DNA from: Anadara kagoshimensis
Lineage: Eukaryota > Mollusca > Bivalvia > Arcoida > Arcidae
NCBI GenBank assembly: GCA_021292105.1
Contig: CM037867.1
Span: 39,549,343 to 39,613,342, forward strand
Length of the DNA: 64,000 nt
Direction: 5' to 3'
The notes beneath the pieces were generated by a model that made no database searches, was not told where the DNA came from, and saw only the letters and a program-made list of their open reading frames with translations. Both the position numbers and the translations under genes were made by a program. Positions within the stretch are counted from its first letter, which is position 1. Every line of letters starts with the position of its first letter. Shown here piece after piece: positions 9,953 to 33,370 of this stretch.

Positions 9953-10292
9953 GTGTTAAGCATTAGGAACATTCACGCAATTTTATCTTTCCTTATCCCT
10001 TTTCAATTAAAGGACCTGCTTATTTTTTAGTTCAGATAAAATGCAATGGACGTTCTACATTTACAGTATAGACCACTTTTTTAAGATCTACAAAAATGTG
10101 TTTTAATGACGTTCTACATTTACAGTATAAAACTCTTCATAGTTTCACAAAATACTTAAAATGTGTTCAATGGATGTTTTTAATAACAGTATCAAACTCT
10201 TTTCTTAGATCTACAAAAATACAAAAATGTGGTCAATGGATGTTTTTAATTACAGTATCGAACTCCTTTCTTAGATCTACAAAATACTTAAA

Positions 10293-10698
10293 ATGTGTTC
10301 AATGGATGTTCTACATTACATTGTCAAAATCTTTTCTTAGATCTACAAAAATGTGTTCAATGGATGTTCTACATTACATTGTCAAAATCTTTTCTTAGAT
10401 CTACAAAAATGTGTTCAATGGATGTTCTACATTACATTGTCAAAATCTTTTCTTAGATCTACAAAAATGTGTTCAATGGATGTTCTACATTACATTGTCA
10501 AAATCTTTTCTTAGATCTACAAAAATGTGTTCAATGGATGTTCTACATTACATTGTCAAAATCTTTTCTTAGATCTACAAAAATGTGTTCAATGGATGTT
10601 CTACATTACATTGTCAAAATCTTTTCTTAGATCTACAAAAATGTGTTCAATGGATGTTCTACATTACATTGTCAAAATCTTTTCTTAGATCTACAAAA
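10293..10698. repeat. 58-bp minisatellite, 7 near-perfect units
   Basis: The unit starts ATGTGTTCAATGGATGTTCT and ends CTTAGATCTACAAAA. Units start at 10293, 10351, 10409, 10467, 10525, 10583 and 10641, with degenerate units on both sides (about 9470-10290 and 10699-10930). The same motif occurs singly in the 3' flank of each K+ channel copy (for example 13040-13100 and 12275-12325, also 11334-11395), so the array derives from that flank. Open frames through it are artefacts of a period that is not a multiple of three. Confidence 0.92.
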
Positions 10699-10954
10699 AT
10701 GTGTTCCGTTACAGTATCGAACTCTTTTCAATTAGATCTACAAAATAACAAGAATGTCTTCAACGTTCTACATTTTAGCATCTAACTTTTGTTATATCTA
10801 CAAAAATGTGTTCAATGACTGTTTTAAAATACAGTATCGAAATAGTTTCTTAGATATACAAAAATCCAAAAATGTGTTCAATGACCGTTCTAAATTAGAG
10901 TTTCGAACAGTTATTCTGACTCGAACCCGTTTTCTATGATCTAGAAAAATACAA

Positions 10955-11085
10955 AGATGTCTTTTTTTCAAATTAATGCCTTTTTCCTTATTCACGGTTT
11001 CATAAAGGTAGCTCGACTTTGTTTTTTGTATTTTCTTGTGGTGAAATCTTGTTTGTCGAACCTTCCCTTTTCTACATTGATAACA
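10955..11085 (-). pseudogene. Remnant of K+ channel C-terminal coding end (copy D)
   Basis: Matches the last coding segment of the intact channel (the block around GTAGCTCGACTTTG and TTTTCTTGTGGTGAAATC on the plus strand, and the TTTTCTACATTGATAAC stretch) but is short and full of substitutions. It breaks off near 11085. No functional frame remains. Confidence 0.65.
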
Positions 11086-11396
11086 GGGGTTACTGTAAAG
11101 ATCATGTAGCACTCCTAGGCATGTAAATGGATGCTGCAGTATTTTATTCAAGATATCAACATATTAATTATATGATTGTCTAATAATCCACACTTAACAA
11201 TAAAACAAATATATTCAACTACATTCATTTCCAGGGTGCACCATTCCCGATGCGCACTAATTTCATGGTGAGGTGGACTGTCACCAAACTCTAGGTGACG
11301 GCCATGTAACCTCTACGCTGTGCTACACCGTACAAAAATGTGTTCAATAGGCGTTCTACATTATCAAACTCTGTTCTAAGATCTAGAAAACACATT

Positions 11397-11571
11397 ACAT
11401 TCAAACCTCTCTATAAAGACCGCCTAGGGAGACAGTAAATTGGCCTTAATTGGCAGGTGGCCCTTCAATACAGGTTCATTAACATGAAAAGCATTTGAGA
11501 TAAAAAAAATTACTGGTCTTTAAAAGCATGTGGTCCTTATATAGAGGTAGTCATTAAGGCAAGTTAGAGTA
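11397..11571 (+). mobile_element. M3 MITE inserted in a K+ channel 3' flank copy
   Basis: Diverged M3 (TCAAACCTCTCTATAAAGAC to GGTAGTCATTAAGGCAAGTT). It interrupts the 3' flank of truncated channel copy A, which continues at 11334-11395, so it inserted after that duplication. Confidence 0.65.
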
Positions 11572-11591
11572 TATTGTTTATTGATGCATAA

Positions 11592-12052
11592 CACATAGTG
11601 AGTCAAGTGACTCGACTTTGTCATTTGTCACATAATTTTCCTGTGGTGTAATCTTGTTTTTAAGACCTTAATTTTTACGTTTGGAATAAGTATGCAAAAA
11701 CTATTTTCTACACTGATAATGGAAATAATGATTCGCAAAGTTTGAAGCAATCACAACAATAGGTAGTGCAAATATCAAGATACCGCAGACACTATTTACA
11801 GAGTGCGCCTATGAAATATCCGACAGCAGTTATTGATTGAAAGTCGCCGTAGCCAACCGTTGTCATGGTAACAGTTGCCCACCACATGGTAACGAATATG
11901 TCGTAATATAAGGATTCGTTTGACATTATTTCCCCGTAGAATATTAAGCTTGAAAATACTTGAATTGCCGACAACAGAAATCTGAAACCTGAATCACAAC
12001 AGAACTCTGAAACCTGAAACCTGAAACCTGAACCATCACAAAGAAACGGCAA
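11592..12052 (-). pseudogene. Truncated K+ channel exon copy A (decayed)
   Basis: Distal copy of the same fragment. It keeps GEIMSNESLYYD and TMTTVGYGDF, then degrades: the residues after the filter differ from the parent (QSITAVGY), a small insertion near 11795 shifts frame right after GALC, and the parental Trp after QCRK is a stop (TAG). Matching sequence continues to about 11592 in a shifted frame. It shares with copy B the same S5-side deletion and (GTTTCAG)n run, so that deletion predates the second duplication. Confidence 0.82.
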
Positions 12053-12358
12053 AGGGAGCTCTAGACGGCGTTATAGTACTTCTACAACTCTCTAAATGCA
12101 ATCTTTAAACTGGATTATATATTTTAATGGACAGTCAATAACCTAAAACACCGGAATACGGATCACAGGATCCGTCTGGTTCGAATCCGAGTGAAAAAGT
12201 TTGTTAGTCGTTTGACTGGAAGAATCTTCATTAGTGGTACTTATAAGACTTGTGTATTTTATTTACATCAAATGCAATGAACATTCTACATAACAGTATC
12301 ATAATCCTTTCTTAGATCTACAAAATTACAAAATAATCTATTTTTTCAAATGAACGCA

Positions 12359-12820
12359 TTATTGTTTTTTGATATCAGAAGGTGGTGGCTCGACTTTGGT
12401 CTGTGTATATTCTTGTGGCGCAATCTTGTTTGTAAGGCCTTTCTTTTTACGTTTAGAATAAATATAAATAAACCTTTTTTTACATTGATAACATGAGTAA
12501 TGATTCGCAAAGTTTGAAGCAATCACAGCTATAGGGAGTGCAATGATCAAGATACTACAGACAGAACAGAGTGAGCCTATGAAATATCCGACAGGAGTTG
12601 TCGGGTGAAAGTCGCCGTAGCCAACCGTCGTCATGGTAACAGTTGCCCACCACATGGTTACGAATATGTCGTAATATAAGGATTCGTTTGACATTATTTC
12701 CCCGTAGAATATTAAGCTTGAAAATACTTGAATTGCCGACAACAGAAATCTGAAACCTGAATCACAACAGAACTCTGAAACCTGAAACCTGAAACCTGAA
12801 CCATCACAAAGAAACGGCAA
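12359..12820 (-). pseudogene. Truncated K+ channel exon copy B (end of S5, pore, S6, tail)
   Basis: An open frame almost identical to the intact channel from late S5 (FSSLIFYGEIMSNE) through TMTTVGYGDFHPTTPVGY, S6 with ALPIAVIASNF, to the terminal SDIKKQ. There is no S1-S4. Just upstream of S5 about 56 bp are missing, joining S5 directly to the S4-S5 linker region (ATTGCCGACAACAGA on the plus strand). This is followed by a short (GTTTCAG)n run and unrelated sequence. There is no start context and no T1 exon. It is most simply a partial tandem duplicate, non-functional as a channel, although its frame is still open. Use as an alternative 3' exon cannot be excluded from sequence alone. Confidence 0.8.
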
Positions 12821-13025
12821 AGGGAGCTCTAGACGGCGTTATAGTACTTCTACAACTCTCTAAATGCAATCTTTAAACTGGATTATATATTTTAATGGAC
12901 AGTCAATAACCTAAAACACCGGAATACGGATCACAGGATCCGTCTGTTTCGAATTCGAGTGAAAAAGTTTGTTAGTCGTTTGACTGGAAGAATCTTCATT
13001 AGCGGTACTTATAAGACTTGTGTAT

Positions 13026-13126: not shown

Positions 13127-14023
13127 TTATTGTTTTTTTATATCAGAAGGTGGTGGCTCGACTTTGGTCTGTGTATTTTCTTGTGGCGCAATCTTGTTTG
13201 TAAGGCCTTCCTTTTTACGTTTGGAATAAGTATGAATAAACCATTTTCTACATTGATAACATGAGTAATGATTCGCAAAGTTTGAAGCAATCACAGCTAT
13301 AGGGAGTGCAATGATCAAGATACCACAGACAGAACAGAGTGAGCCTATGAAATATCCGACAGGAGTTGTCGGGTGAAAGTCGCCGTAGCCAACAGTCGTC
13401 ATGGTAACAGTTGCCCACCACATGGTTACGAATATGTCGTAATATAGTGATTCGTTTGACATTATTTCCCCGTAGAACATTAAGCTTGAAAATACCAGAA
13501 CCACCATGAAGAAACTGAGAACCATCAGCAGTAGTTCTCGCAAGCTGGCTCGAATTGCCAACAACAGAACTCTGAAAGCCTTGAACTGTTTCGCTAACCT
13601 AAAGATTAGCAGGATTCGGATCATATTGCATGACTTGATAACGAGGTAGAAGTTAGTCGCAGCTGAATTTTCCATGATCAAATCTTTTTCGATTTCTAAG
13701 ATCAACGTCATTAACATTATTATAATCAAAATAATAGTGATGACGCTCAGAGGTTGTTTAAGGAACTTGTGGCGATTCGGACAAAAAATGAGATGTAATA
13801 TAAGTTCTGTTGTGAAAACCAAAAGACAAAATATCTCCAAGGCGAACAAAACCGGAAGTGGATCTTCAAAAAGTAAATCCTTTAGTTTCGTATTTTTTAT
13901 TTCGCTGATGTTGTGGTCTGACAAGTCCGATAAGTATGAATCCGCTCTCAGTTCTGAAATAGTTGCCAAACAATATACCAATGTACTCAATGCCACTACA
14001 AACAGGTAGAAGTAATGCCATGC
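13127..14023 (-). CDS. Shaw/Kv3-like K+ channel subunit, exon 2 (S1-S6, pore, C-terminus)
   Basis: Last coding exon, 298 codons plus TAA, residues 153-450 of the predicted protein. It starts after a good acceptor (pyrimidine tract then CAG at 14024) and opens with AWHYFYLFV, the start of S1. S2 has the FTTE charge-transfer motif and CPN; then S3, an S4 with basic residues at 288, 294, 297, 300 and 303, the linker IRASLREL, S5, the pore TMTTVGYGD (filter 362-367), S6 with ALPIAVIASNFANHYS (about 391-406), and a short basic tail ending SDIKKQ. Family knowledge: LRAS after S4 and SNFAxxYS after S6 are Kv3/Shaw-like. Oddities: S3 has SVIT where Kv channels have NIID, so the gating-centre Asp is absent; the S4 lacks several arginines; the PVP hinge reads PIA. 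The protein should sit in the plasma membrane as part of a tetramer. Whether it conducts alone is doubtful. The 3' end has decayed tandem copies downstream. Confidence 0.9.
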   Translation of the reverse strand, partial: AWHYFYLFVVALSTLVYCLATISELRADSYLSDLSDHNISEIKNTKLKDLLFEDPLPVLFALEIFCLLVFTTELILHLIFCPNRHKFLKQPLSVITIILIIIMLMTLILEIEKDLIMENSAATNFYLVIKSCNMIRILLIFRLAKQFKAFRVLLLAIRASLRELLLMVLSFFMVVLVFSSLMFYGEIMSNESLYYDIFVTMWWATVTMTTVGYGDFHPTTPVGYFIGSLCSVCGILIIALPIAVIASNFANHYSCYQCRKWFIHTYSKRKKEGLTNKIAPQENTQTKVEPPPSDIKKQ

Positions 14024-14064
14024 CTGAAACAGAAAAAAAAATTTTAAGTATAGTTAAAGATATA

Positions 14065-14243
14065 TACAGTCAAACCTGTCTATAAAGGCCACCCAAGGGA
14101 ACCAGTAAAAGTGGCCTTTATAGACAGGTGGTCTTTAGATACAGGTTAGAATAATATGAATAAAGAACAATTGGGGTAAAATTCTACTGGCCTTTATAAG
14201 CAGGTGATCCTTATATAGAGGTCACCTTTAAGTCAGGTTGGAA
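14065..14243 (+). mobile_element. M3 MITE in the K+ channel intron
   Basis: TACAGTCAAACCTGTCTATA at the left, GAGGTCACCTTTAAGTCAGG at the right. It lies within 45 bp of the acceptor of the minus-strand channel exon 2. Confidence 0.75.
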
Positions 14244-14479
14244 TGGGTTTTTGAACCGGAACCACGCAACTTACTGTCGGTAAATCGGGATTTTTTGGCG
14301 TCAGTTTCTTTAGTGAATTTTGAAAAAACATCTATATATAATAGCAAGAATGCAAAAGAGAAACTATTCAAGACTAAAATGAATGGAGATGTGCGGATTC
14401 AGATGTCGACAGACGGACAACGGCTAACTATATATAGCCGTTCTTTGGTATAATAACTAGATACACAATATTAGATATC

Positions 14480-16500
14480 GAAGATGGATAGTAGTCCACT
14501 CGACCATCCCCAATAGAATAGATAAATAATATTGAAATTATGTAAAATTAAAATCGATATTAAGCGATTAAATATTTAAATGGAATCCAATATGTTTTCA
14601 TTAACATCAAACACGTTTCAGATGGATAGTTCATTAACTCTTAATGCTGCAATAAAAATACATTAGGGACAATTTGTTCAATATTAAAGCAAGCTGCTCG
14701 CGAATAAATTGTTTATTCAGGGATGCCACAAACTTTGGCTTATCAAGCCCCTCACAAAAGTTTTATAGTCGTCCTCTAATATGGCTGTCATCACAGTATT
14801 GTTGAAAAGTATTACATCTCTGCATCCAAAATTATCCTGCATATATTTGACGTCCTATAATTATTTCATGGTCCTCTGAATTCACAACTTCTGTAACACC
14901 TACCCTTCCGGAGCACCCGGACTCACTTCCCTGGTGGAAGTTCACACATTTAACTTAATTTACCATTTGCAAAGTTTTTACTTTGCTTTCGGAATGCGAT
15001 TTTGACATGGAGGCATAGATTGATATGTTATGGTTGTTAATGACACGCTGTACCAATATTGACATGATGTAAATTGAAGATCGATAATTAAGAATTAACT
15101 ATTTAAGTGGAGTTCAATATGTTTTCATCAACACCAAAAACGTTTCGTTGATTAATTCTTTATACTTGTAGTAGTATGGTCAATAAAAATACACTTAGGG
15201 GCAAATTGGTCAATATATAAAGTGTCATGTGCTGATTTTGAATTTTTATTAGAAATAATGCATTCAAAATCAGTTGTCATGTGCTGATTTTGAATTTCTA
15301 TTAAAATAATGCATTCAAAATCAGTTGTCATGTGCTGATTTTGAATTGTCATGTGCTGATTTTGAATTTCTATTAAAATAATGCATTCAAAATCAGTTGT
15401 CATGTGCTGATTTTGAATTGTCATGTGCTGATTTTGAATTTCTATTAAAATAATGCATTCAAAATCAGTTGTCATGTGCTGATTTTGAATTGTCATCTGC
15501 TGATTTTGAAATTTTATTAAAAATAATGCATTCAAAATCAGTTGTCATGTGCTGATTTTGAATGCATTATTTTTAATAAATATTCAAAATCAGCAGATGG
15601 CAAAAGCAAGCTGTTCGCAAATAAACTGCACGTTGTCTCGATGATATTGCAAGCCTGGACTTATCAAGGTCCTCAAAAACATTTTTATGGTCGTCATCAC
15701 TATATTGATGACAAGTATCATGTCTCTGTCAGTCTGTATCCAAAATTATCCTGATTTTTGTTTGTTTGTTTGTTTTTTTTTTTTTTTGACGTCCAATAGT
15801 TCCACGTTCCTTTGATTTCACAACTAGCCAGACAGGACCGGAGCTCCCGGACTCGCACCCAATGCAAGGTGGAAGTGTTTAACTAAATTTGCCAGTTTCA
15901 AGGTTTTTACTTTGATTTGTGATTCGGACATGGATTGCTCGACCATATTTGCACATTGAAGTCATTCCCCCGATAGAATTGATAAACATTATGCGGTAAT
16001 AATATTTAAATGATGTAAAATGGAAATTGATATTTATAAATTAACAATTGAAGTGGAATTCAATATGTTTTTTTCAGTAACATCAAAAACATTTCAGATG
16101 AATTGTTGATTATCTCTTAATACGAACAATTTAGTCAATATAAATTACACCAGGGAAAATCTGGTCAATATATAAAGCAAGTTATTTGCAAATGTATTGT
16201 TAATTCATGGATATTACAAGCCTAGGTTTATCAAGGCCCTTAAAAACTTTTATGGTCGTCATCACTATATTGCTTGTAAGTATGGTGTCTCTGTTTGACG
16301 CCCTATAGTTTCATGTTTCTTTTATTCTCAAATTCATATTTTATTTTGGCGCATGTAGCTAACTAGACAGTAGGAGCATGCACTTCCGGAGCACCCGGTC
16401 TCACTTCTAAGGTGGAACCCCACATGCTTAGCTTCATTTGCTGGTTTTCAAAGATTTTACTTTGCTTTTGCGATTTTGATTTGGACATGGATTAGAATTA
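14480..16500 (+). repeat. Three-unit tandem duplication in the K+ channel intron
   Basis: Units at about 14480-15024, 15060-15938 and 15950-16500 each contain a TTCAATATGTTTT leader (TCCAATATGTTTT in unit 1) and then an R1 copy. The middle unit is longer only because of the H array at 15223-15602 and a T-run at 15761-15787. The divergence between units is considerable. Confidence 0.8.
15223..15602. mobile_element. H element expanded into a hairpin array
   Basis: A run of roughly 50-bp and 21-bp modules built from GTCATGTGCTGATTTTGAAT and its complement, starting TGTCAT and ending ATGGCA. Flanked by AAAG at 15219-15222 and 15603-15606. The uninterrupted site (ATATAAAGCAAG) is seen in the neighbouring tandem unit near 16170-16182. 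Confidence 0.8.
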
Positions 16501-16671
16501 TGTTTCACGGTGGTTTTTAAGTTTTGGTTATCTTAACAACAGGTTAAAGTAGAAAACATCTTAGTTATCTTTAGCGTTTTTGTTGTTATAATTTTGGTTA
16601 GAGAGAGAGAGAGAGAGAGAGAGCACCAGAAGTCATTGTTAAGCCCACACTAATTTTATATCATATCTTAC

Positions 16672-17127
16672 CAATGCAAAATTAGAATGCCCTGGGTTTT
16701 CTAAATTTTTCCATATTTCATTGCCAGTTTCCATGCCATTGTCCCGCCCGTGTTCGGACTCGTATATCTCTACTTCTTGTTTCAGGTTCTGTCTAATTTC
16801 CTTTTCCTCTTCGAACTGACAAAACACTTTCCAGCAACATTCTGAAACTATATCTGATGGGATTTCCCAGAATTCCATTTCCTGTCGTATTATTGCGCTA
16901 CAGATGTGCATCGGCATGTGTAATTCGCCGGAAGAAATGGCGTTTATTATAACGTTAAACGCTTCCGGGTCACGGTCAAAGAAATATTCCTTCTCCACAG
17001 TATCATAGTAATCCGATAGTTGACTTAAATCCCTAAGCTTGGTATTGGGTAAATTTTCTAATGTCGACTGAAGAACTATGAAGGAGCGTCCACGTATGTT
17101 GAATTTGATTCGTTTATCTTTTGTCAT
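16672..17127 (-). CDS. Shaw/Kv3-like K+ channel subunit, exon 1 (N-terminus and T1 domain)
   Basis: First coding exon, 152 codons, of a voltage-gated K+ channel alpha-type subunit whose second exon is at 13127-14023. It encodes the cytoplasmic T1 (BTB-like) tetramerisation domain: the IRGRSF core at about residues 11-16, EYFFDRDPEAFN at 47-58 and a FWEI strand. H70, C76, C97 and C98 form the HX5CX20CC zinc motif typical of non-Shaker (Kv2/3/4) T1 domains. I chose the methionine at 17127 because it matches the length of the homologous plus-strand gene at 23617; an in-frame ATG at 17157 would add 10 residues. The exon ends after a TTG codon with donor GTAAGA at 16671-16666, a phase-0 junction identical in position to the plus-strand paralogue. 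After the zinc motif comes an acidic linker (about residues 105-150) leading to S1. No frame disruption is seen. Promoter elements are not recognisable. Confidence 0.88.
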
Positions 17128-17159
17128 TTTTTTTAAGATTAAGGAGCCACGATTCATGT

Positions 17160-18397
17160 ATTCATTTTCTGAAGTTGAAGTCGACAGTTGTCAAAACAAT
17201 CACGAACACTGCAAACAATAAAATTTAAGAAATTAGTTTTTTCAGAAATGAAATTATTTTTTTCTTATTGTTATGAAAAAATGAAAGAATTAGACACTGC
17301 GTAATTTACATTTTTCCAAATCAATTAAAAAAAAAAAAAAAAAAAAAAAAACTTTTTATAAAAAATACAGTCGTATCAAGCAACAAAATGCATCGTTCTG
17401 GCGTAGAGATGCAGATGTTTTTGTGCGACATCCATAATAGCATGACGTCACTGAGACCCAATCATTCATGCAAAAATAGAACCTTTGGTATTTACCCCGT
17501 CAAACTTACCAAAACACCAGCCGCTTTGCAACATCAGCAAAAACGTGGAATAGAATATTTAAAATTGATACACTTCTCATTTCACATTATGTATCAAATT
17601 ATAACTACAATGTATTTAATTTAAATAAAAATCGTAGAGTAATGTGTCTAACACCTCAGTCAATATTATTTCAGTCATCGAAACGTGGAACTGATTCATA
17701 TAAAATAAAACTGAAGAAAAAATACACAATAAAAACATACCAGCGCCAAATTTTGAAAACACCAACCTTCCAATATCTATGGGGTGTGTTAAGTTTTATA
17801 AAAAAAAAACAAAATTAAAAGACATCGATTTCTAAAATAAAACATACTTTTCTAGTTTTTCTGATAAAGTGGTGAAATTATGACATAACAATACAACTAA
17901 ACAAACTCTCTCTCTCTCTCTCGCTCTCTCTTATATTTTCATACCTTTGAAATTAATGACCTCTCTGTCTTTTGTCCGTGTCCTGTAGTGTCTTGTCTTC
18001 ATACCCGAAATAAGAGTTTCTATAGAAATGTATCGCATATAAAGGACAGACAACTCTGTTATCGATCACAAACATTTGTGTGACAAAGATCCAAGTCAAT
18101 AAATGCTTTTAACTCTGATAATAACTTAGATGAAGGTACTTTAATTTCCAGTTGCTTCGTCCCTGGGCTTTTAAAAATGAGGTAATTTATTTGTTCAAAC
18201 ATAATTTATTTGATAATCAAAGGATGCAAATAGGCAAACAACATTGACCTGTCCGCTTGACCTTTTATTAGCAACATTCATATAAGATGATCCATCTAAT
18301 ACATGGGTAGTGTTAGGATTTCCAGTTAATACATAAACAATGCATGTTTCCCTATGATGAAGACGAAAAAACAACTGTGTTTCCCTATGTATAAATG
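17160..18397. other. Upstream region of the minus-strand channel gene
   Basis: AT-rich, with an A-run at 17329-17350 and a CT microsatellite at 17908-17930. No promoter motif can be assigned with confidence. Confidence 0.4.
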
Positions 18398-18790
18398 AGA
18401 GTCCGCGATAGCCTAATGGATAAGGCGTCGGTCTACAAATCCAGGGTCTCTCACCGCTGTGAGTTCGGATCCCGCTCAGACCACATGTGGGAAAGTAGAT
18501 TTTCCTTGCCTTCTTGCCGTTGACCTTTACTGGTTCACTGGTATCAGTATAATGTGACTGGGGAGTGATACGCTTGTCTGCGGCGTACTGACTCTGTAAG
18601 CTAGCGCCTTAAAGTCGCCCTGAGTGCGCGCTAGTACAAGGCAGACCAAAAACACACTCGCACTTCACATGCATGTATACACAAAGTTGCCACGTTTCAT
18701 TGATTAATCCATAGAAATTATTTAAAGCAGTTCTCGTCGCAAATAGCTGAAAAATTGCTGATGCGACGTTAAGCAACATTCAACCAACGA
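18398..18790 (+). mobile_element. S1 SINE copy
   Basis: Same head, body and CAACCAAC tail as the copy at 546-929. The target-site duplication is imperfect (ATGTATAAATG-like before, ATACATAAATG after). An M1 element begins about 20 bp further on. Confidence 0.85.
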
Positions 18791-18811
18791 ACTTATACAT
18801 AAATGTACTGG

Positions 18812-19052
18812 TCCCGGTTTCACAATCATTTCTTAGCTTAGATTTTCCTTAACTTAAATCTGACAAATTTGAAAAAAAGTTATAATTTTGTTAATTTTTA
18901 AATATTCAGGAATTTAAGGGTGTCCCTTTGTAGATCAGTCAAAGCTTATTACAGCTATAATTCAATTTTATCAAAAATTTTAATTGTAGTACCATTAAAT
19001 GTTGCCAAAATTTACCAGCTTAAAGTTAAGGAATGATTGTGAAACCGGGGCC
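18812..19052. mobile_element. M1 MITE-like element
   Basis: Inverted ends CTGGTCCCGGTTTCACAATC and GATTGTGAAACCGGGGCCAG define the outer border of the family. No clear target-site duplication. Confidence 0.75.
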
Positions 19053-19070
19053 AGGTCCTCAATAAATATA

Positions 19071-19415
19071 ACCACTGCGGTAGCTCAGTCGGTAGAGTGC
19101 TCGCTCCGTAAGTGGGAGGTCGTGGGTTCGAACCCCGGCCGGGTCTGACCCAAGACTTGAAAGTGGGTAGTGACTGTTCTTTCGCCAAGCACTCGGCATT
19201 ACGAAATGAAAGTCAAGGTTCTTTCGGATGGGAACTTAAAATAAAAGAGGTCCCGTGTCACGGTGGGCTTGGCACACTAAAGAACCCTGCTGTATAATGC
19301 CATAAGCGCAACGCACAGGCAATATTTCTGCACTTTCGCCTATAGCTGGCGACGTCTCGATATAAGTGAAATATTCTTGACTGGGACGTTAAACACCATT
19401 ACTAACTCACTCACT
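19071..19415 (+). mobile_element. S2 SINE copy
   Basis: Well-preserved head (GCGGTAGCTCAGTCGG; GTGGGTTCGAACCCCGG), full body and a tail with CTCACTCACT. It directly follows an M1 element. Confidence 0.88.
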
Positions 19416-19696
19416 TAATAAAATAAATAAAAGGTCAAGAAGACAAGTCAATGTTGTTTGCCTATACCCTTCCACTTACAACAAACACACAGTTACCGGT
19501 AGACAAAGGATTCAGAAACTAGTGTATTATTATTATATCTCTCGAGAAAAAAAGAAATCAATATTTTTTCAAAAAGAATTGACACAAGTATATTGTTTCA
19601 AGTAATTATTTAATAACCGTTATATAACAAGTAATAAAACATACTTTTATAACAAAATCGTTAAAACAACTACCGGTATTACCCGGAAGATGTATA

Positions 19697-19900
19697 GAAC
19701 AGGTTCCGGTTTTACATTCATTCCATAACTAGATTTTCCTGAACATAAATTTAGCGAATTTGTCAATCTTTTATGGAACCCGAATTACAATTTTTTTGAC
19801 AAAACTAAAATAGATGTTATTCTTCAAAATTACATCTTAAATTATCAAATATCTTGAAATGAAAATCTAATTATAAGTTAAGGAATGATTGTGAAACGAA
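19697..19900. mobile_element. M1 MITE-like element (diverged)
   Basis: Left GGTTCCGGTTTTACATTCAT and right AAGGAATGATTGTGAAACG. Confidence 0.65.
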
Positions 19901-19973
19901 GTGAGTGAATTATTGTTTAAAGCCGTATCAACTCTATTGCAGCTATTCGCGGCTGATTGTGAAACGGAGACTA

Positions 19974-20295
19974 AGTCCCAATTTCACAATCATTCCTTAA
20001 CTAAGATTTACCTCTTAATAAATTTTTAATGGGGGTCGCCGCTGTATCACGTGATCAATACCTCTTAACGTTTGTGCACAATATCCCAAATTCCCGGAAT
20101 GGCGTCGTTTTCACTTGAAAACATAATCTTATTCGATTCCATATCCATTGGAAATAACTTAAGTGTTCTGCACAAACATTAGAGGGTATCACGTTAGTTC
20201 TCACAAAAATGTACTTTCATAACACCAAAGAAAATTGCCAAAAATTACTAAATAGGTGTAGGAAAACCTTAAATGATTGTAAAAATAGAGCTTGG
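19974..20295. mobile_element. M1 MITE with nested foldback
   Basis: M1 left end (CCCAATTTCACAATCATTCC) at 19976 and a degraded right end (AATGATTGTAAAAATAGAGC) near 20290. Inside at 20040-20190 is another foldback: TATCACGTGATCAATACC with ACGTTTGTGCACA against CTGCACAAACATTAGAGGG. Confidence 0.55.
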
Positions 20296-20879
20296 TAAAG
20301 CACAATTTAACTTCCGGTGTAACTTGGAACTCGAGGTGGAGAACAGGTCAAGTTCCGGTAGACCTTTGAGTTGTAGAACAGGGATAGACCGACACAAATT
20401 TGTTCAAGGTGGAGAACAGACAAAGTTCTGGTATAGATTTTAGGTGCAAAACATGCTATATGACAATCTTCAATAACATTTTTCCTAACTAGCGCTTTCA
20501 TGCTTTATGATAATTTTCAGGTGATATTAATTTTAAATGGTTTTTAGCATAAATAAATAATGACGACACGCTTTTTGCATCAGGATGGCGGAAACTGTTA
20601 TGTAAACAATTATGGAGACCCGCGCTATACAGTAAACGAAACGGAAAATTCTCTCCGGCAACAAAAAGACCGATTATTTATTAATATATAAAAACCAACT
20701 TTAAAAAGATAAATAACATTATTTAATCATTGCATCTTCACGCCTATCGGTCGTTCATAATCGGATAGCGGTGTTTACAACGAGTTGATTGAAATATAAC
20801 CAAGAAAAAAGTGGGTGGCGTAACTACGGCAGCGCAGAAGTGATATGAACATATTGTTCATATTGCATGCTTACACCAA

Positions 20880-21660
20880 AGTTATCGCATGTGATTCCAT
20901 ATCCAAATGGAAAAATTGTTCCGCGAAAACTGTAGGAAACACATTTTCGTTGCAAATTCACAAAACAAGGTCATTTTACTGGACAATACGTTATTGTACC
21001 ATGAGAGCAATGTCTTTACTCTCCGTGCAAAACGTTTTGAAAAAATAGTTGCAAATTTACGGAATAAGGTCATTTTTACAGGAAGAACGTCAACTGGCGT
21101 GATTCCATATTCAATAGTATTAATGTTCAACGCAAACTTTGAGTGGAAATATTACGTTGTAAATTTACAGAATATCTGGGGAAAAAAACGTCAAATGATG
21201 GCATTACATATCCAATGGAAAGAATTGTTTTGCGCAAACTTTTGGGGTCATCAAATTATTGTGAACCCAGTGCTGCCATTGCTGCAAGAACTTGGCTAAT
21301 ACCTTTAGAACTGTTTTGCGCTTTAGGGGGAAGTCACATGGTACGCCCGTGAAGTCATTGCTACCAGAAATCACCGACCATAACCTATTTCGCGAGCCCA
21401 TTGCTTTCAGAACTCAATTAATTAAAGCTTATATAACTGTTTCGCGCTTGCAAACGTTTGGGAGTGTCACCTGGCACTCCCGTAAAATCATTGCTGTCAG
21501 AACTCAGTTTGTGCTCATATAACTCCTCCGCGTGTTTAGAGAACTCATTGCTGCTAGAATTCGACCAAAACTTATTATATAACTGTTCTGTGCAACTTCA
21601 TTGGTACATATCACATGGTACCCCCGTGAACGCATTGCTGACAGAACTGGACTAATCCCA
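20880..21660 (+). repeat. Degenerate tandem repeats
   Basis: About eight diverged units with recurring GATTCCATAT, GTTTTGCGC-like, CCCGTGAA and CATTGCT motifs, with spacing of about 80-120 bp. Related wording appears at 20040-20190 and 35910-36480. A 130-codon open frame crosses it but follows the repeat, so it is not called. Confidence 0.55.
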
Positions 21661-21853
21661 TACCAAAAGTTAATTGTGTTGATCGGATCAGTCTTTATTT
21701 ATTGACTTATAAAACTTTAATTTTGGACACAAGAGAAGCTTTGTGATTTGAACTGTTAGTCGGAACATTTGCATATAAATAATTAAATAAAATATTGAAA
21801 AAGAAATCAATGGCTATATACTTCGAATATGACGTTTTTGATTTGATGACAAT

Positions 21854-22013
21854 TACAGTACAGGCCTGTCTAAAGTTTAGTACCAAGCTAACGAATTAGT
21901 GCCGAAACATTCCTGGTTAGCTTATATTTCCGCAGCTTTAATCTACAGTACAGGCCTGTCGAAAGTTAAACACTCAGCTAACGAATTATGGGTGAATCGG
22001 TAGCTTATTCCAG

Positions 22014-22079
<66 letters not shown>

Positions 22080-22317
22080 AGCTCTATATATCCACAGTTC
22101 CACTATCTCTCGGCAGCTTCATGTCCGCTAGCTATTAATATATCAGTCACTTTGCAGCCGAAGCGCGACACGTTTTCGTTCAGTGTTTAACTTCCGACTG
22201 GCTTGTACTGTAGAAAACTTCAAACGGTCACTTGTTCTCCATACTCCAGCCACTCAGCAGCTAAGCTTTCACTGCTTTTCGTTAACTTAGTGTTAAACTT
22301 TTGACAGGTCTGTACTG
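21854..22317. mobile_element. M2 MITE pair
   Basis: Two left ends (TACAGTACAGGCCTGTC at 21854 and 21943) and one right end (GTTAACTTAGTGTTAAAC ... GACAGGTCTGTACTG at 22317). The right part includes a long (GA)n tract at 22017-22082. Confidence 0.65.
22017..22082. repeat. (GA)n microsatellite
   Basis: Interrupted GA repeat inside an M2 element. Further GA/CT tracts lie at 16602-16623, 17908-17930 and 35284-35313. Confidence 0.9.
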
Positions 22318-22331
22318 CGAGTTTTTAATAT

Positions 22332-22389
22332 TGCCATGTGGTACTTTTGAATTTTTATGAAATAATACATTCAGAAGTAGCACATGACA
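22332..22389. mobile_element. H element: 58-bp foldback transposon
   Basis: TGCCATGTGGTACTTTTGAA pairs with TTCAGAAGTAGCACATGACA. Flanked by the 4-bp duplication ATAT (22328-22331 and 22390-22393). TG...CA ends of TGTNR type with a 4-bp duplication resemble Ginger1-type transposon ends. Confidence 0.7.
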
Positions 22390-22429
22390 ATATCTTTATT
22401 GTCAATTTATAATAGCTACAAATGTTAAG

Positions 22430-22696
22430 TACAACACAGGTCTGTTAAAGGTTTAACACTGAGCTAACGAAAAGAAGTTGAAGTTGGGCTACCGAGCGGT
22501 CAAGATATGGACAGCAGTTGCTGTAAAGCTGTTGGAAGATAGCAGCTGAGCAGCTGCAGATACAGAGTGTCCCATAATACATGCCAGTCACACTTTCAAC
22601 TTCTGGGGCCGAGATAAGCTAAAAATTCGGCACTAATTCATTAAAACTGGTATAATATGTAATTTAGTGTTAAATTTTCGACAGAACTGTACTGTA
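22430..22696. mobile_element. M2 MITE
   Basis: TACAACACAGGTCTG and CGACAGAACTGTACTGTA at the ends, bounded by TA on both sides, as for mariner-type elements. Confidence 0.75.
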
Positions 22697-23091
22697 TTCT
22701 GTCCTTTTATCCAGAGCAATTACCGTTAATTTTTGAACACAAAACTCGATAAAACCGAGTACAAATGGATATTTTGCTTAATGCATATAATTTTGTTTAT
22801 GTAACGGCTAACCCGGACTGTTCGAACTCGTATAAATATTGGTATTCATTTATTGATTTTGTTAAAATAAAATGTACAGATTTGTAGCTTTATTCTGAAA
22901 TATTAAACTATGTCTGTAAAATCCACTAAAGTAACATTAAATAAAATTTTCGCCTTTCTATATTTACAAATGAAAAGGTTTTCATAAGTTTGAAAAGAAT
23001 TAAATAACATAGTTTTAAATATTTAATAGGTATTTTAAAATCTTTAATCCCCATCCGACGTCCTGTATGAAAGATTTGGAATAATTCCATG

Positions 23092-23311
23092 TACAACACA
23101 GACCTGTCGAAAGTTTAACACTCAGTTAATGAGAAGAAGCCGAATCTTGACTGTCGAGTGGCCGAGATACGGATTGCTTATGGCCGAAAAACTGCTAAAT
23201 ATATAGATACCAGCTGCTGAAATTCTAAGGAGATACGGGTGACGAGATGAGCAGCCGATTCGGTGCCAATTCTTCAGCAAAGTGTTAAACTTTCGACAGG
23301 TCTGTACTGTA
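23092..23311. mobile_element. M2 MITE
   Basis: TACAACACAGACCTGTCGAA at the left and TTCGACAGGTCTGTACTGTA at the right. It lies 300 bp upstream of the plus-strand channel start codon. Confidence 0.78.
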
Positions 23312-23616
23312 GACGGTAATTGTTATTATATTTTAAATAAATAAATAAATCATAATTTGACCTGTGCAGAATAGAATGTAGGCAAGCATGTCTGGTGTCC
23401 AGTAGATCACTGACTGCTTATTGTGTATTAATTTGGTGTCAATTTCAATCTTTTTCGATTAAAAATGTGTCTAAGTTGAAAAGTTAAGAATTATATTATA
23501 ACATAAATAGACATCAATTTCAAGCAGGAAGTAGGAAATCATATTTCAATGAAGATTTGAAACTATAAATTATGTGCAAAGCCAAGTAGTTTCTGAAATT
23601 TTGGAATTAACCGGAA

Positions 23617-24068
23617 ATGGATACGGTGACACTTAATCTAAGAGGGAAGCGGTTTGAAGTGACTCCGGATTTATTGAGAGCTATTCCGTACACCACTTTA
23701 GCAAGATTGGACAAATCTTCGGAATATTATAATGTAGACAAAGACGAGTACTTCTTTAACCGAGACCCGGAAGTCTTTAACGTCATTTTAAACTATCTGG
23801 TTCTAAAGAGCTCCACATACCGAGGCACATTTGCGGAGGTATTATCCGGCAAGAATTCAAGTTCTGGAGAATTCAAGAACAGAACATCTCTCAATGTTGT
23901 TGGCATACATTTTATTCTTACCATGAGGATAAAAGTATTTTCGAGAAACTAGAGAACTTGATGATCACAGATGAAACAAAAGAACACCATGAGAAATTTT
24001 GTGACGGAGGCATTAGGATGACGTTATGGAAAACTTTGACGGAGCCTAGCCATTCGATTGTAGCAATG
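23617..24068 (+). pseudogene. Second Shaw/Kv3-like K+ channel gene, exon 1 (T1 domain), frame-shifted
   Basis: Encodes the T1 domain of a paralogue of the minus-strand channel. It starts MDTVTLNLRGKRFEV and has DEYFFNRDPEVFNVILNYL. At about 23799-23801 one base is missing relative to the family; in the next frame the homology resumes with KELHIPRHICGG and FKFWRI, and continues to the exon end. The zinc motif HX5CX20CC (H-IPRHI-C ... CC) is fully conserved across the shifted part. The exon ends with ATG and donor GTGAGA at 24069, the same phase-0 boundary as the minus gene. With the missing base counted it is 151 codons. The lack of other damage suggests either a very recent pseudogene or a sequencing/assembly indel. 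Confidence 0.8.
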
Positions 24069-24429
24069 GTGAGATAGCATTTACCTCTATATAACATTGA
24101 TGAATGTTAATAATGATGTTTACGAACTGACAATCATTCTTACGCTAGGATCTTGCCCGGCTGTCATGAATATCAGGGCGCCGTGGCTCAAAAGCGCACG
24201 TTTAGACCACTTGTCCACCAAAACCCTGATTCTTTACTTTAAAATACATAGCAGTGATATTCGAAATTCAGTTCTAGGCCGAGTTTTAAAAAGATTTTTT
24301 AAAAATCCATATAAATTAACTGCAGATTAATTTTGTGAGGAGTTTTGTCACCATTAAGGTTTTATAGATAGTGACTTTAAGATGTTAGTGAAATGATCTT
24401 GGTTTGAGCACAAAACAGTATTGCACCAA

Positions 24430-24913
24430 CCACAGTATAAGAAAAAAAGCAACTCAAACTACGACCTGGCAACAGCCGAACACAATTCAATACAAGTCAA
24501 TGATGAACAGCCGAATATGGCCAGACCAAAAAGGACAAGTACTTATTTGGACCACTTAACACTACACAATACAAGTCAGTGCTAAAACAAAAAAGTCAAC
24601 AGCCAACGAAAACAAGAACACAAAAACACGACAAGCCAAGACAAAACAAAATACAAACAGATATTTGGATAAATTAACACAACACAATACAAGTCAATGA
24701 TAAAAAAGTCACAGCCAACATAACATTGTAAGACATAAAAAAAGGCAAACACGTATTGGGACCAATAACACAAACTAAAACAAGCCGATGATAAAACAGT
24801 TAAACACGACAAGCCAATACAAAACAAAAATACAAACAGATATTTGGATAAATTAACACAACACAATACAAGTCAATGATAAAAAAGCCACAGTCAAACA
24901 TAACATTGCAAGA

Positions 24914-24961
<48 letters not shown>

Positions 24962-25340
24962 AACACGTATTGGGACCAAGAACACAAACTAAAACAAGCC
25001 GATAATAAAACAGTCAAACACGACACGCCAAGACAAAACAAAAAGGACAAACACAAATGGGAACAAATTAACAGAAAATAAGACAATACAATGATAAAAC
25101 AGCCACTGGCAAACAAAACATAACAAGACAAAAATACGAAAAATTAGGACCAGTTAACACAAAACAATACAGGTCAATGTTAAAACAGCAACACAAAACA
25201 AGACAAAAGGGAAAAAATACATATTGGAACAAATTAACACAAAACAATACAAGTCAATGATAAAACAGCCACAGCCAAACAAAACAAGACAAAAAAAAAG
25301 ACGAACACATATGGAGACCAATTTACTATAAATGTATTTT
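24430..25340. repeat. A-rich degenerate tandem repeat in the plus-strand channel intron
   Basis: A unit of about 100 bp around AATTAACACAACACAATACA and GTCAATGATAAAA is repeated roughly eight times, with a 43-bp A-run at 24915-24957. Fragments of the same family lie at 40800-40870 and 62340-62510. Long reverse-strand hydrophobic frames here are by-products. Confidence 0.75.
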
Positions 25341-25351
25341 TTATTTTCCAG

Positions 25352-26350
25352 ATATGGCACTACTTCTTCCTACTTGTTGTGTTTATGAGTTCCGTGGTAT
25401 TCTGTTTATGGACACTTCCGGATTTCCGAGTCCCGCCATATTTGTATGAACCGCCACCATGCCTCCCCGGATCCGAACTCCACCAGTATTCTGAACGAAA
25501 AACTGTTACACCTTGTTATTTTTGACGCTATACCGGAAATAATATTTTGGAAGGAATTTGTTTATTTATTTTACCTTTGAATTGTTCCTGAATTTTATCC
25601 TTTGTCCGGATAAAACTAAGTTCTTCAAGGATTCATTGAATATTATACATATAGTTGTATTCGTCATAATGGGCGGCGCATACAGCATGGAATTTCTTAA
25701 AGGTCAGATGGCGGGAAAACCAGAGTTGGGATACGTGTACTTTGTCGTGAAAGGCCTAAACATGGTCCGGATATTTTTGTTTATAAGGTTCGAGAGAACC
25801 TTTCAGGCTTTCAGAGTGTTGTTGCTTGCTCTGCGAGCTAGTGTCAAAGAACTTTGCCTGATGTTTCTGGGGTTCGCGGTTCTAACGCTGTTCTTCTCAA
25901 GTGTCATATTCTATTTAGAAATTTATGGAGATACTTTCTACAATATATTCATTTGCATGTGGTGGGCCATTATTACCATGACAACGGTTGGTTATGGCGA
26001 TGTTTCACCAACGACAACAGCCGGATATATAATTGGCGTTTTGTGCGCAACTTCCGGTATTCTACTAATCTCGATGCCAGTGGCGGTAATTGCATCGAAT
26101 TTTTTCTTCGTATTACTTGGTGCATCATGACATCACGATGCACAAAGAATCGGTAGCCAGAGGGGCCAAGAAGAGCTGTTTGGAAAAACTAGTAAGGAAT
26201 TTACACGGACAGACACTGAATTGTATGCAACTTCTACCCATGCAACTGAAATATCCTCGGATGAAAACAAAAAGCCGAAAGATGAAGCGAGTCAAAAGAA
26301 ATCCGCAAACAGCAAACGGATCAGCTAAACCTCCGCTTCCGGAACATTAG
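25352..26350 (+). pseudogene. Second Shaw/Kv3-like K+ channel gene, exon 2 (S1-S6 and tail), three indels
   Basis: Begins after acceptor TTATTTTCCAG at 25351 with IWHYFFLLVVFMSS (S1). The frame shifts at an A-run (25498-25502), a T-run (25569-25572) and a T-run (26100-26105), each consistent with one extra base. Between shifts the homology is continuous: FDAIPEIIFWKEF, FTFELFLNFILCPDKTKFF (S2), NIIH in S3, an S4 with R, L, R, R, Q, R at three-residue steps, LALRASVKELC, S5, TMTTVGYGDVSPTT, S6 with ISMPVAVIASNF, and a hydrophilic tail ending near 26350 (an alternative frame stops at 26328). The filter is intact; the S3 Asp and the second hinge proline are missing, as in the minus-strand paralogue. 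As given, no full protein can be read. All indels in exon 2 sit in homopolymers, which fits a base-calling error as well as decay. Confidence 0.82.
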
Positions 26351-28960: not shown

Positions 28961-29460
28961 AAACTTGTCTTGACTATAGTGTTATCTTTCTCAGATTTGG
29001 AACTGGAAATTGTCTGGATTATAAATGTCAAATAAATTACTCATATCAGTAATCTGTACACAAGTTTTAATTAAAATTATTACATTGCATTTTTATTCCG
29101 TTCCGAATGATATGAAAATTAATACTAACCGAAATGCATGTTGCCAACAGCTAGTTCCATAATTTATTAAAACCATCTATTCAAATTATGTCTTTGAGAA
29201 TTTATGGATCTATGAATCTATGGCGAACTACCTTACATCAATGACTGCGAGTGAACGCGTCAATTGTGCGGACAGTCACTGGTGCATGGTGTTGTCGCCA
29301 ATGCGAAAGCACACACAGATTCTGTTAGACTGACATCGGATCGAAAGTGTTCTGATCTGGTGATTGTTTATCGCTAATGAAAGGAACATATAGGCAATAA
29401 ATATACAATATATGTATTTAGTACAGTATAACATGTTATAGCGACACTCCTATTAAAATA

Positions 29461-29796
29461 CCACTGCGGTAGCTCAGTTGGTAGAGCGCTCGCTCCGTAA
29501 GTGGGAGGTCTTGGGTTCGAACCCCGGCCGGGTCTGACCCAAGACTTGAAAGTGGGTAGTGACTGTTCTTTCGCCAAGCACTCGGCATTACGAAATGAAA
29601 GTCACGGTTCTTTCGGATGGGAACTTAAAATAAACGAGTTCCCGTGTCACGGTGGGCTTGACACGCTAAAGAACCCTGCTGTATAATGCCATACGCGCAA
29701 CGCACAGGCAAAATTTCTGCACTTTCGCCTATAGCTGGCGACGTCTCGATATAAGTGAAATATTCTTGACTGGGACGTTAAACACCATTACTCACT
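29461..29796 (+). mobile_element. S2 SINE, full length
   Basis: Best S2 copy: an intact tRNA-like head with TGGGTTCGAACCCCGG box B, body ending TTGACTGGGACGTTAAACAC and an (ACTC)n tail. A 16-bp target-site duplication CACTCCTATTAAAATA lies at 29445-29460 and 29797-29812. Confidence 0.92.
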
Positions 29797-30468
29797 CACT
29801 CCTATTAAAATACTAATCTGCTATAACTATAACCACAATATAGAACCACTATATAAGTTGCTTTATAACACTGTCTATAAAGTCTTTTTGTCTAAGTTCC
29901 CATGGATGATTTTTTTTATATACGAGGTTTTACTGTTATACTCTAACGTCAAATAAGAACACACTACAAGAGAATAAGTTATCAGAAATGTGCAAGTTGC
30001 AATTGACAAAACAACCAGAAACACTCTAAAATATATAAAAACATCAAAAACATAAATGGAGCCCATTAACTGACAATAGGGGAAAAAGTATATTCAACAA
30101 ACTTGGAAGCCATGAGCTAATTCTTTACTTTTTCTTAATAAGCACAGGTAAGTAAGCATTTTGTCAAGCATTACAAATTTACAATCGGATTTCTCGGATT
30201 TCTGGTCATCGCGTGAAAACGAAAGAAAGATAACTCTAGTTGTCTTGTATGAATATGTTTAGATAATTATAATTATCGAAATATTTTATTTCTTGTAACG
30301 TAACTAAAATACGTCTAAATTCGTTAAAATTAAGCTACGTTTAAAACAATAAAAACCCTTAATGTAATCAAGTACCTAATACACACCGACTCTGTTTTAT
30401 TTGGAATTGTTCATTTAGCTGGTGACAAAAATCGTCATATCCTTTATACTTACAAAAAAAGCTTAAGT

Positions 30469-31700: not shown

Positions 31701-31844
31701 CGAATACCACAGTTCTCCTAGGCATGACAGGGGAAACTGTAGTACCCAGAGAAAACCATCGTCATTTGACAAGCGTTCACACATACTAGAACCTGTCCGA
31801 CTGAGATTCGAACCTATCCATAACAGTGAGTTGAGAAATATTTT

Positions 31845-32166
31845 TAAACGTCCCGGTCAAGAATATTTACTCATATCGAGACGTCGCAAGCTAAAGGCGA
31901 AGGTGCAGAAATTTTGTCTGTGCGTTGCGCTGATGGCATTATACAGCAGGGTTCTTTAGCGTGTCAAGCCTAACGTGACACGGGACTTCGTTTTTTTTGA
32001 GTTCCCATCCGAAAGAACCGTGACTTTCATTTCATAATGCCGAGTGCTTAGCGAAAGAACAGTCACTACCAACTTACAAGTCTTGGGTCAGACCAGGTCG
32101 GGGTTAGAACCCATGACCTCCCACTTACGGAGCGAGCACTCTACCAACTTAGCTACCGCAGTGGTA
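31845..32166 (-). mobile_element. S2 SINE copy
   Basis: Reverse-strand S2 from tail (TTAAACGTCCCGGTCAAGAA) to head (CTGAGCTACCGCAGTGG-like, with substitutions). Body full length. Confidence 0.85.
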
Positions 32167-32239: not shown

Positions 32240-33370
32240 AATAATGGTGATGTATATATAGAATGATGTTTCACGGCTGAAGGAGTAAAGCTTATCATAT
32301 GCCATCATGTATAATGAAATTGATTATATCGCCATTTCTGCTAAATTTCGGAACGTCTTTCAGGAAACTCAAGACTAGTGCGCTCATTTCTGGAATGGCG
32401 GGGTACTCTGGAGTATCTAGACATAACCACTATCCTTTGGCAAAAAAGTGGAAACAATTCTTACTAAGAATGTAAAAGGGACTCAAACCTAGACGGTAAA
32501 AGGCGCTGTGATCCGGAACCGACAATTTAGACTGATTGTTTACCTAGGATCCATTATCCGCACCTAAGGTTTATGTTTGTTTATATTTCAACCAGACAAG
32601 GGACATTAGTTTATATACGAACGTAATTTTTATACGCATTTAACGAAATTAACTGTATCGAAATTAACTAATTCGCCATTTCTTATATCTCGGAACTTCA
32701 TTTACTGGGTAACTCAAAATTATTGCGATCAGTTCAGGAATGGCGGAGGAAACTGGAGTCCCCAAAGATAACCACCATCTTTTTGGAAGGAAAGTGGGGA
32801 AAATTCTAAGTAAGAATATTAGTAGGATTCAAACCTAGATGAAAAAATCGCTGTCATCCGAATGAGTGAGTGAGTAATGGTGTTTAACGTCCCAGTCAAG
32901 AATATTTCACTTATATCGAAACGTCGCCAGCTATAGGCGAAGTGCAGAAATTTTGCCTGTGCGTTGCGCTGATGGCATTATACAGCAGGGTTCTTTAGCG
33001 TGCCAAGCCCATCGTGACCTCGATTATTTTGAAGTTCCCATCCGAAAGAACCGTGACTTTCATTTCGTAATGCCGAGTGCTTGGCGAAAGAACAGTCACT
33101 ACCAAATTCAAGTCTTGGGTCAGACCCGGCTGGGGTTCGAACCCACGACCTCCCACTTACGGAGCGAGCACTCTACCAGCTGAGCTATCGCTGTGATTCC
33201 GTACCCGACAATTTAGGTTGCTTGTTTACCTAGGATCCATTATCCGCACCTAAGGTTTATTTTGTTACATTTTAACCAGGCAGAGTCATTAGTTTATTTA
33301 AGTATAATTACACACGAATATGAACTTTATTGGTATTTAATGAAAGTAATTATAGCGCCATTTTCTTAAT
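32240..33370. repeat. Tandem repeat, about 360-bp units
   Basis: TTTACCTAGGATCCATTATC with GCACCTAAGGTTTAT recurs at 32541 and 33216. GAATGGCG-type blocks recur at 32391 and 32736. The second unit is interrupted by an S2 SINE (32861-33190). Confidence 0.75.
32861..33190 (-). mobile_element. S2 SINE copy inside a tandem unit
   Basis: Reverse-strand S2 with a (TGAG)n tail. Flanks ATCGCTGTCATCCG before and ATCGCTGTGATTCCG after look like a target-site duplication. The site falls inside the second unit of the tandem repeat at 32240-33370, whose first unit shows the uninterrupted sequence near 32507. Confidence 0.85.

Follow-up and report, generated by a model that had tools for sequence, protein, structure and literature searches.

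Two Kv channel genes of the bivalve Anadara kagoshimensis belong to a 15-gene clade with a single loss of the second S6 hinge proline

We describe two Kv-type potassium channel genes, A and B, that lie within a stretch of 64,000 nucleotides of the bivalve Anadara kagoshimensis (GenBank assembly GCA_021292105.1, contig CM037867.1, positions 39,549,343 to 39,613,342 of the forward strand; the whole stretch is called the window here). Both belong to a clade of 15 Kv genes in this genome that keeps the selectivity filter and the T1 domain, and in which one loss of the second proline of the S6 PXP hinge has been maintained under purifying selection. The leading explanation, to which we give about half of our confidence, is that the class would consist of modulatory, silent or weakly voltage-dependent subunits. 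An original prediction, made from the letters of the window, had described A and B as a divergent Shaw-like pair that lost key gating residues, and had proposed a modulatory class; its observation was confirmed and its interpretation is partly supported.

A and B were aligned to Kv1.2, Kv2.1, Kv3.1, Kv4.2 and a Drosophila Shaw sequence entered by hand. As predicted, both keep the TVGYGD filter and, in T1, the zinc motif HX5CX20CC, followed by a W; neither A nor the intact copy of B introduced below has lost the S2 residues E226, F233 and E236 (Kv1.2 numbering). The S3 Asp said to be missing from both is indeed gone, with Thr in A and His in B at the aligned position, and alignment to the five references bears out the replacement of the PXP hinge, by PIA in A and by PVA in B. 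In S4, positions R1 to R6 read K-N-R-L-R-K in A and K-N-R-L-R-R in B, and A aligns with Kv3.1 without a gap from R2 up to and including the S4-S5 RAS motif. The Leu at R4 had thus been correctly called in both; the Asn had been placed at the outer Arg, which must be R2, since the outermost position R1 keeps a Lys in both proteins.

The two proteins are 46% identical over 383 columns, and they share more residue changes than expected by chance. At 77 columns that are invariant among the references, both keep the residue at 50 and both carry the same replacement at 12; they carry different replacements at 7, and A alone is changed at 3 and B alone at 5, one of the latter being a gap at the end of the aligned piece. 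In the S4-S5 linker region of both, GL is replaced by AF and T by A, and in S6 P is replaced by A and V by A, this last change lying three residues past the hinge Ala. Over four aligned blocks the proportion of synonymous differences (pS) is 0.76-0.84, near saturation, and that of nonsynonymous differences (pN) is 0.20-0.38, pore-S6 being the most conserved block with 0.20.

The genome (1.115 Gb in 36 contigs) was searched with the exon 2 protein of A, which gave 79 matches, and with Ion_trans, which gave 149; only the best candidates were scored, and the resulting set is therefore a sample rather than every Kv gene. Setting aside 15 second copies, near-identical or shorter, reduced 51 candidate Kv transmembrane open reading frames (ORFs) to 36 distinct ones. 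Left out of the set were a Shal exon without S6 (L024), L044, L047, L061, L067 (PVPI), L068 and L069 (both without the first proline), as well as loci without a usable Kv ORF; L045 (S4 start), L029 and L060 are partial rows because of exon borders. The second hinge proline is absent in 15 of the 36 ORFs, which carry PXA or PXS, or in the case of L053 LIA, with both prolines gone. Another 15 have lost the first proline alone (TIP, TVP, SVP, VIP, MIP, IIP, LIP or VVP; L005, L006, L008, L013, L017, L023, L027, L028, L030, L031, L035, L036, L048, L060 and L095). PXP is intact in six, namely L001, L002, L029, L045 and the canonical Shaw-type L004 and L019, both of which have PVPV.

In a tree of the 36 ORFs and the five references, the 15 genes without the second proline form one clade (support 100/99), and with the trait columns in S2, S3, S4 and the hinge masked its support is 100/100. 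On the masked tree, with 40 readable rows, the loss is a single change, so that the second proline was evidently lost once and its absence then kept; over 40 rows the first proline and the basic R2 each change three times. A class thus exists, and it is far larger than a pair. HX5CX20CC is found in 13 of the 14 class T1 exons recovered, the 14th (L053) ending at an exon border. As a separate observation, L078, a second copy of the T1 exon of L016, is a short ORF of 82 amino acids (aa) without the full zinc motif.

The loss of R4 and that of the S3 acid are confined to a smaller group. Four of 41 rows have no basic residue at R4, and four of the 38 rows that are readable at the S3 position have no acidic one there; in both cases the genes are A, B, L040 and L034, which form a sub-clade with support 96/96. 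Each loss is one change; R4 is Leu in all four, R2 is N, N, N and T, respectively, and L034 has a Leu at the S2 Phe position as well. The two changes on one branch suggest co-loss of a charge pair, as one unreplicated event. The loss of R2 in A and B is not special, since the Shaw ortholog of this genome, L004, also lacks a basic R2.

The class is under strong purifying selection, as seen in near-identical copies of its members. Pooled over seven class copy pairs, trimmed at their ends to runs of 8 identical residues, there are 82 synonymous differences over 1377.5 sites and 32 nonsynonymous differences over 5069.5 sites, giving pN/pS 0.106. Two further comparisons outside the pooled figure gave dN/dS (the ratio of nonsynonymous to synonymous rates) of 0.18 (L041/L058) and 0.11 (A/L040); three copy pairs outside the class gave 0.09-0.20, and a fourth is identical over 383 codons. 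Between the copies of gene A exon 2 there are 12 synonymous differences and one nonsynonymous difference, and the copies of gene B differ at 11 synonymous and 0 nonsynonymous positions (235 codons in two aligned in-frame blocks). The low pN/pS, together with near-saturated synonymous sites between proteins that are 46% identical, indicates that A and B are maintained protein genes. The view that their shared losses are ancestral and constrained, rather than marks of decay, is upheld by this and by the single losses on the masked tree.

Gene A is open in the window. Gene B is frame-broken there, which had been overlooked when two paralogous genes were proposed: a frame-aware alignment with A places one frameshift in exon 1, three between S1 and S2 and one or more past S6. 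The A-B region occurs a second time on the same contig, about 0.66 Mb away (C11:38.91 Mb, L010), and in that copy gene B is open in both exons; our initial reading of B as a pseudogene was abandoned once this intact copy turned up. The two copies of B are 99.6% identical in exon 1 and 98.2% in exon 2, and relative to the intact copy the window copy carries a single 1-bp indel in exon 1 and, in exon 2, six 1-bp indels plus a 2-bp difference, mostly as absent bases (two more listed differences are alignment ends only). A long-dead allele would be expected to accumulate nonsynonymous changes, of which there are 0, and an assembly error is hence the likeliest cause of the frameshifts. Many Kv ORFs are duplicated in this manner on the same contig (on C4, C6, C7, C11, C13, C16 and C18), about 0.02 to 6 Mb apart and with protein identity of 93.6-100%; the second copies are either unpurged haplotigs or recent (segmental) duplications.

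The family to which the class belongs was assessed from a 31-row tree of T1 and S1-S6 combined, unrooted and with long branches, that holds 14 of the 15 class genes (all but L056); T1 exons were found for all 26 of the genome's own genes that were tried. Kv1.2, Kv4.2, Kv2.1 and the Shab gene of this genome split at 98/99 from the other 27 rows, made up of the Shaw-like genes and the class, and Kv2.1 groups with this Shab gene, L001, at 100/100. When the class was forced together with Kv2, with Kv4 or with Kv1, approximately unbiased (AU) tests gave p of 0.031, 0.008 and 0.019, respectively (three tests, uncorrected). Descent from Kv2 is disfavoured by the first of these values, weakly so if the three tests are corrected for. 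Joining the class to L004, L019, Kv3.1 and Drosophila Shaw alone gave p 0.159, and joining it to the Shaw rows plus four first-proline-less genes gave 0.211, values that neither reject nor demonstrate these groupings. Rather than nesting A and B among ordinary Shaw channels, the result that the original prediction had named as a refutation, the trees leave L004 and L019 outside the 15-gene clade. A tree with references only puts A and B on the Kv3.1/Drosophila Shaw side at 52/91, and its AU tests (p 0.552, 0.441 and 0.400 for joining Kv2.1, Kv1.2 and Kv4.2) give them no placement.

Counts of family-diagnostic residues either say little or speak against Shaw: of 36 Shaw-diagnostic columns, A matches 5 and B 4. 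Among structures in the PDB, the T1 of A is closest to 3KVT, a Shaw T1 (78.5 bits), and then to Kv4.3 (76.2); whole A is level between Kv2.1 (205.9) and Kv3.1 (205.8), and the S2-S6 piece of B is closest to Kv1.3 (116.1; Kv3.1 110.1). At 91% identity, 3KVT (from Aplysia) is about as close to the Shaw T1 exon of this genome as Drosophila Shaw is at 90%, so that the comparison does not point to one phylum. The zinc motif is not specific to Shaw, as Kv2.1 and Kv4.2 carry one too. "Shaw-side, outside canonical Shaw" is a fair label for the class.

In vertebrates, silent Kv subunits all lack the second proline, and an alanine at the hinge is poorly tolerated (PMC3440756). In Kv1.1 and Kv1.2, hinge mutants lower the current; Kv1.1 P403A, at the first proline, and Kv1.2 P405L are dominant-negative, and Kv1.1 P405L gives no measurable current (PMC9331732). 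Kv6.4 has a Tyr at R4 and 1.8 rather than 3.0 apparent gating charges, and inactivation of Kv2.1/Kv6.4 is shifted by -40 mV (PMC3355112). By analogy with these findings, we suggest that class subunits may tetramerise through their Shaw-type T1 domains, either with each other or with a conducting Shaw channel such as L004 or L019. A homomer lacking the second hinge proline would open poorly or never, and in the A/B sub-clade, with two of the R1-R4 charges left and no S3 counter-charge, the voltage sensor would carry less charge. Within a heteromer, a class subunit would be expected to shift activation or inactivation and make it less steep, in the manner of Kv6.4 with Kv2.1, and class subunits would act mainly as modulators.

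Several observations weigh against this proposal. The evidence that loss of the second proline marks silent channels, a point on which the original prediction relied, is itself mixed: it holds for the vertebrate subunits, but Kv1.1 P405S still conducts, with reduced current and a depolarised shift (PMC9331732). Fifteen genes are a large class for pure helpers, and 11 of the 15 keep a basic R4 and the acidic S3 residue. The V to A change after the hinge, shared by A and B, could be compensatory. Of the residues found only in Kv2.1, A matches 21 of 125, against 12 of 120 of those found only in Kv3.1. The T1 domains of A and B are 31-36% identical to the Shaw/Kv3 references, as compared to 56-66% for L019. 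Their T1 identity to Kv2.1 is 34% (A) and 31% (B); since that to Shaw/Kv3 is no better, assembly of A or B with a conducting Shaw channel is a guess.

Some of these points lead to an alternative that we rate clearly below the modulatory one, yet as a serious contender: the class might form conducting K+ channels, as homomers or within the class, with a re-tuned, weakly voltage-dependent gate that makes them low-threshold or leak-like, the hinge loss being compensated elsewhere in S6 and in the S4-S5 linker. Such channels would account for the number of conserved members, for retention of the filter, the S6 glycine and the S2 E/F/E residues in A and B, and for the joint change of the linker and S6 sides of their interface in these two proteins, and P405S offers a conducting precedent. 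Against such channels, loss of the second proline is common to the vertebrate silent subunits (PMC3440756), the A/B sub-clade has neither R4 nor the S3 acid, and the canonical Shaw-type L004 and L019 retain PVPV.

The same sub-clade, being neutral at R2 with Leu at R4, brings to mind the flatworm channel N.at-Kv3.2, which has H at R1 and G at R3 and shows an omega current and low selectivity (PMC2443804), and A, B, L040 and L034 might likewise pass cations through the gating pore. We consider this improbable, as R1 Lys and R3 Arg are retained, the lost positions are not those of N.at-Kv3.2, and the central pore, if unused, would not be expected to lie in the most conserved A/B block. That the genes are simply decaying is more improbable still. 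The several frameshifts of window gene B and the decayed partial copies that adjoin gene A invite such a reading, but A is open and B is intact in its second copy, the 12 versus 1 (A exon 2) and 11 versus 0 (B) counts of synonymous versus nonsynonymous differences speak for selection, and the losses map to single ancestral branches; for the class as a whole, decay is contradicted. A modulatory role remains our leading, though tentative, explanation.

In comparison with known systems, A and B resemble Shaw/Kv3 channels in T1 (HX5CX20CC followed by W), in the six-transmembrane Kv core and in TVGYGD, and differ from them in the loss of the second hinge proline, R2, R4 and the S3 Asp. The vertebrate silent subunits (KvS: Kv5, Kv6, Kv8 and Kv9) share with the class the missing second PXP proline, and Kv6.4 also lacks R4; by the literature they belong to the Kv2 (Shab) family, and joining the class to Kv2/Shab gives AU p 0.031; they were compared here by description only. 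N.at-Kv3.2 is, like A and B, an invertebrate channel that has naturally lost S4 basic residues, and it belongs to the Kv3 family, but it lost R1 and R3, and A and B lost R2 and R4. An enlarged mollusc set of Shaw-type genes has been reported in Lottia, with 13 Shaw genes and, according to a figure legend, a lineage-specific expansion (PMC3519636); the terms proline, voltage sensor and gating motif are absent from the main text of that paper. According to the same paper, silent subunits arose within the Shaker and Shal families of cnidarians and within Shab of vertebrates, with at least three regulatory origins. NvShakR, a cnidarian regulatory Shaker, and jShal-gamma are regulatory subunits of independent origin that give no current by themselves and came about by gene expansion, in families other than Shaw. 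Our literature search found no hinge classes of this kind described in titles or abstract openings and no electrophysiology for relatives of A and B; the lophotrochozoan Shaw expansion is already published. A Drosophila Shaw2 mutant, P410A, is reported to conduct, but the term was not found in the papers searched for it, and the mutant is not used as evidence here.

Positions of the annotated features are collected in the table. Pfam recognises BTB_2 (E 5e-21) and Ion_trans (E 1e-31) in gene A, and a polyadenylation hexamer, AATAAA, lies 95 nucleotides 3' of its stop. Its candidate starts are the ATG at 17157 and that at 17127 (MTKDKR); the two copies of the gene differ by a 1-bp indel between the two ATGs, upstream of 17127, which makes the latter the more likely true start, and most of their divergence is in the C-terminal tail. 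A search of the gene A T1 exon against plasmids gave no match, and an AlphaFold prediction of exon 2 (three window rows) had a mean predicted local distance difference test score (pLDDT) of 44.6 and was not used. An Rfam match over the pore/S6 codons of gene A, to the potassium channel RNA editing signal K_chan_RES (RF00485; 13280-13393, minus strand; 53.2 bits, cut-off 51), is probably coding similarity.

Table. Coordinates of genes A and B and of partial gene A duplicates in the window
Feature	Position	Strand	Basis or detail
Gene A, two-exon Kv subunit	13127-17157	minus	460 aa, phase-0 GT-AG intron
Gene A exon 1, T1/BTB domain with HX5CX20CC-W	16672..17157	minus	Pfam, copy comparison
Gene A exon 2, S1-S6 with TVGYGD filter and PIAV hinge, then a short C-terminus and the stop	13127..14023	minus	
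Gene A residue 258, Thr at S3 Asp position	13736..13738	minus	alignment to references
Gene A S4, from Asn 295 at R2 to Leu 301 at R4	13607..13627	minus	
Gene A hinge P-I-A, residues 403-405	13295..13303	minus	alignment to references
Gene B, same two-exon Kv plan as gene A	23617-26350	plus	
Gene B exon 1, T1 with HX5CX20CC-W	23617..24068	plus	a single frameshift (about 23800-23805)
Gene B exon 2, S1-S6, TVGYGD, PVAV	25353..26350	plus	
Gene B exon 2 frameshifts, window copy	near 25460, 25544, 25569, 26100 and in C-terminal tail	plus	
Gene B His at S3 Asp position	25648..25650	plus	alignment to references
Gene B hinge P-V-A	26077..26085	plus	alignment to references
Partial gene A 3'-end duplicate, late S5 to stop, without T1 and S1-S4	12362..12736	minus	
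Second partial gene A 3'-end duplicate, decayed	11611..11965	minus	frameshift and stops
Short piece left of the gene A C-terminal codons	11006..11085	minus	

At 11006-12838 the 3' end of gene A is partially copied in tandem, the two larger copies lying 768 bp apart from start to start; the nearer one has a frame that is open from late S5 through the stop, and no voltage sensor. A 58-bp tandem repeat at 10122-10706 has a unit that resembles the 3' untranslated region of gene A (alignment score 61, as against 31 for the best of 200 shuffled units). Elsewhere in the window, a dispersed repeat of about 340 bp occurs at 4713-5065, 19071-19411, 29459-29800, 31825-32166 and 32865-33195, and is common to locus L010; since two of its copies have Rfam tRNA matches and ARAGORN finds no tRNA gene, it is probably a tRNA-derived short interspersed element (SINE). 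The plus strand also holds, at 53649-54071, a 140-aa ORF that looks like a neuropeptide precursor: its N-terminus is hydrophobic, and it carries WGGKR and RFKRR sites. Pfam gives no match for it.

With somewhat less confidence than for the modulatory role itself, we suggest that the class may represent a further independent origin of regulatory silent Kv subunits, in the Shaw lineage of this mollusc. In its boldest form, the proposal would be that the class and the 15 first-proline-less genes are complementary half-hinge classes that function as obligate heteromers. In Shaker-type channels, gating depends in good part on the PXP hinge, which is highly conserved, and human mutations in it are associated with severe epilepsy (PMC9331732). 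With 30 of the 36 sampled Kv ORFs deviating from PXP, through few ancestral steps and kept by selection, this genome offers a natural experiment on a one-proline gate, and with R4 and the S3 acid lost once and jointly, charge pairing in the voltage sensor becomes testable between sister genes.

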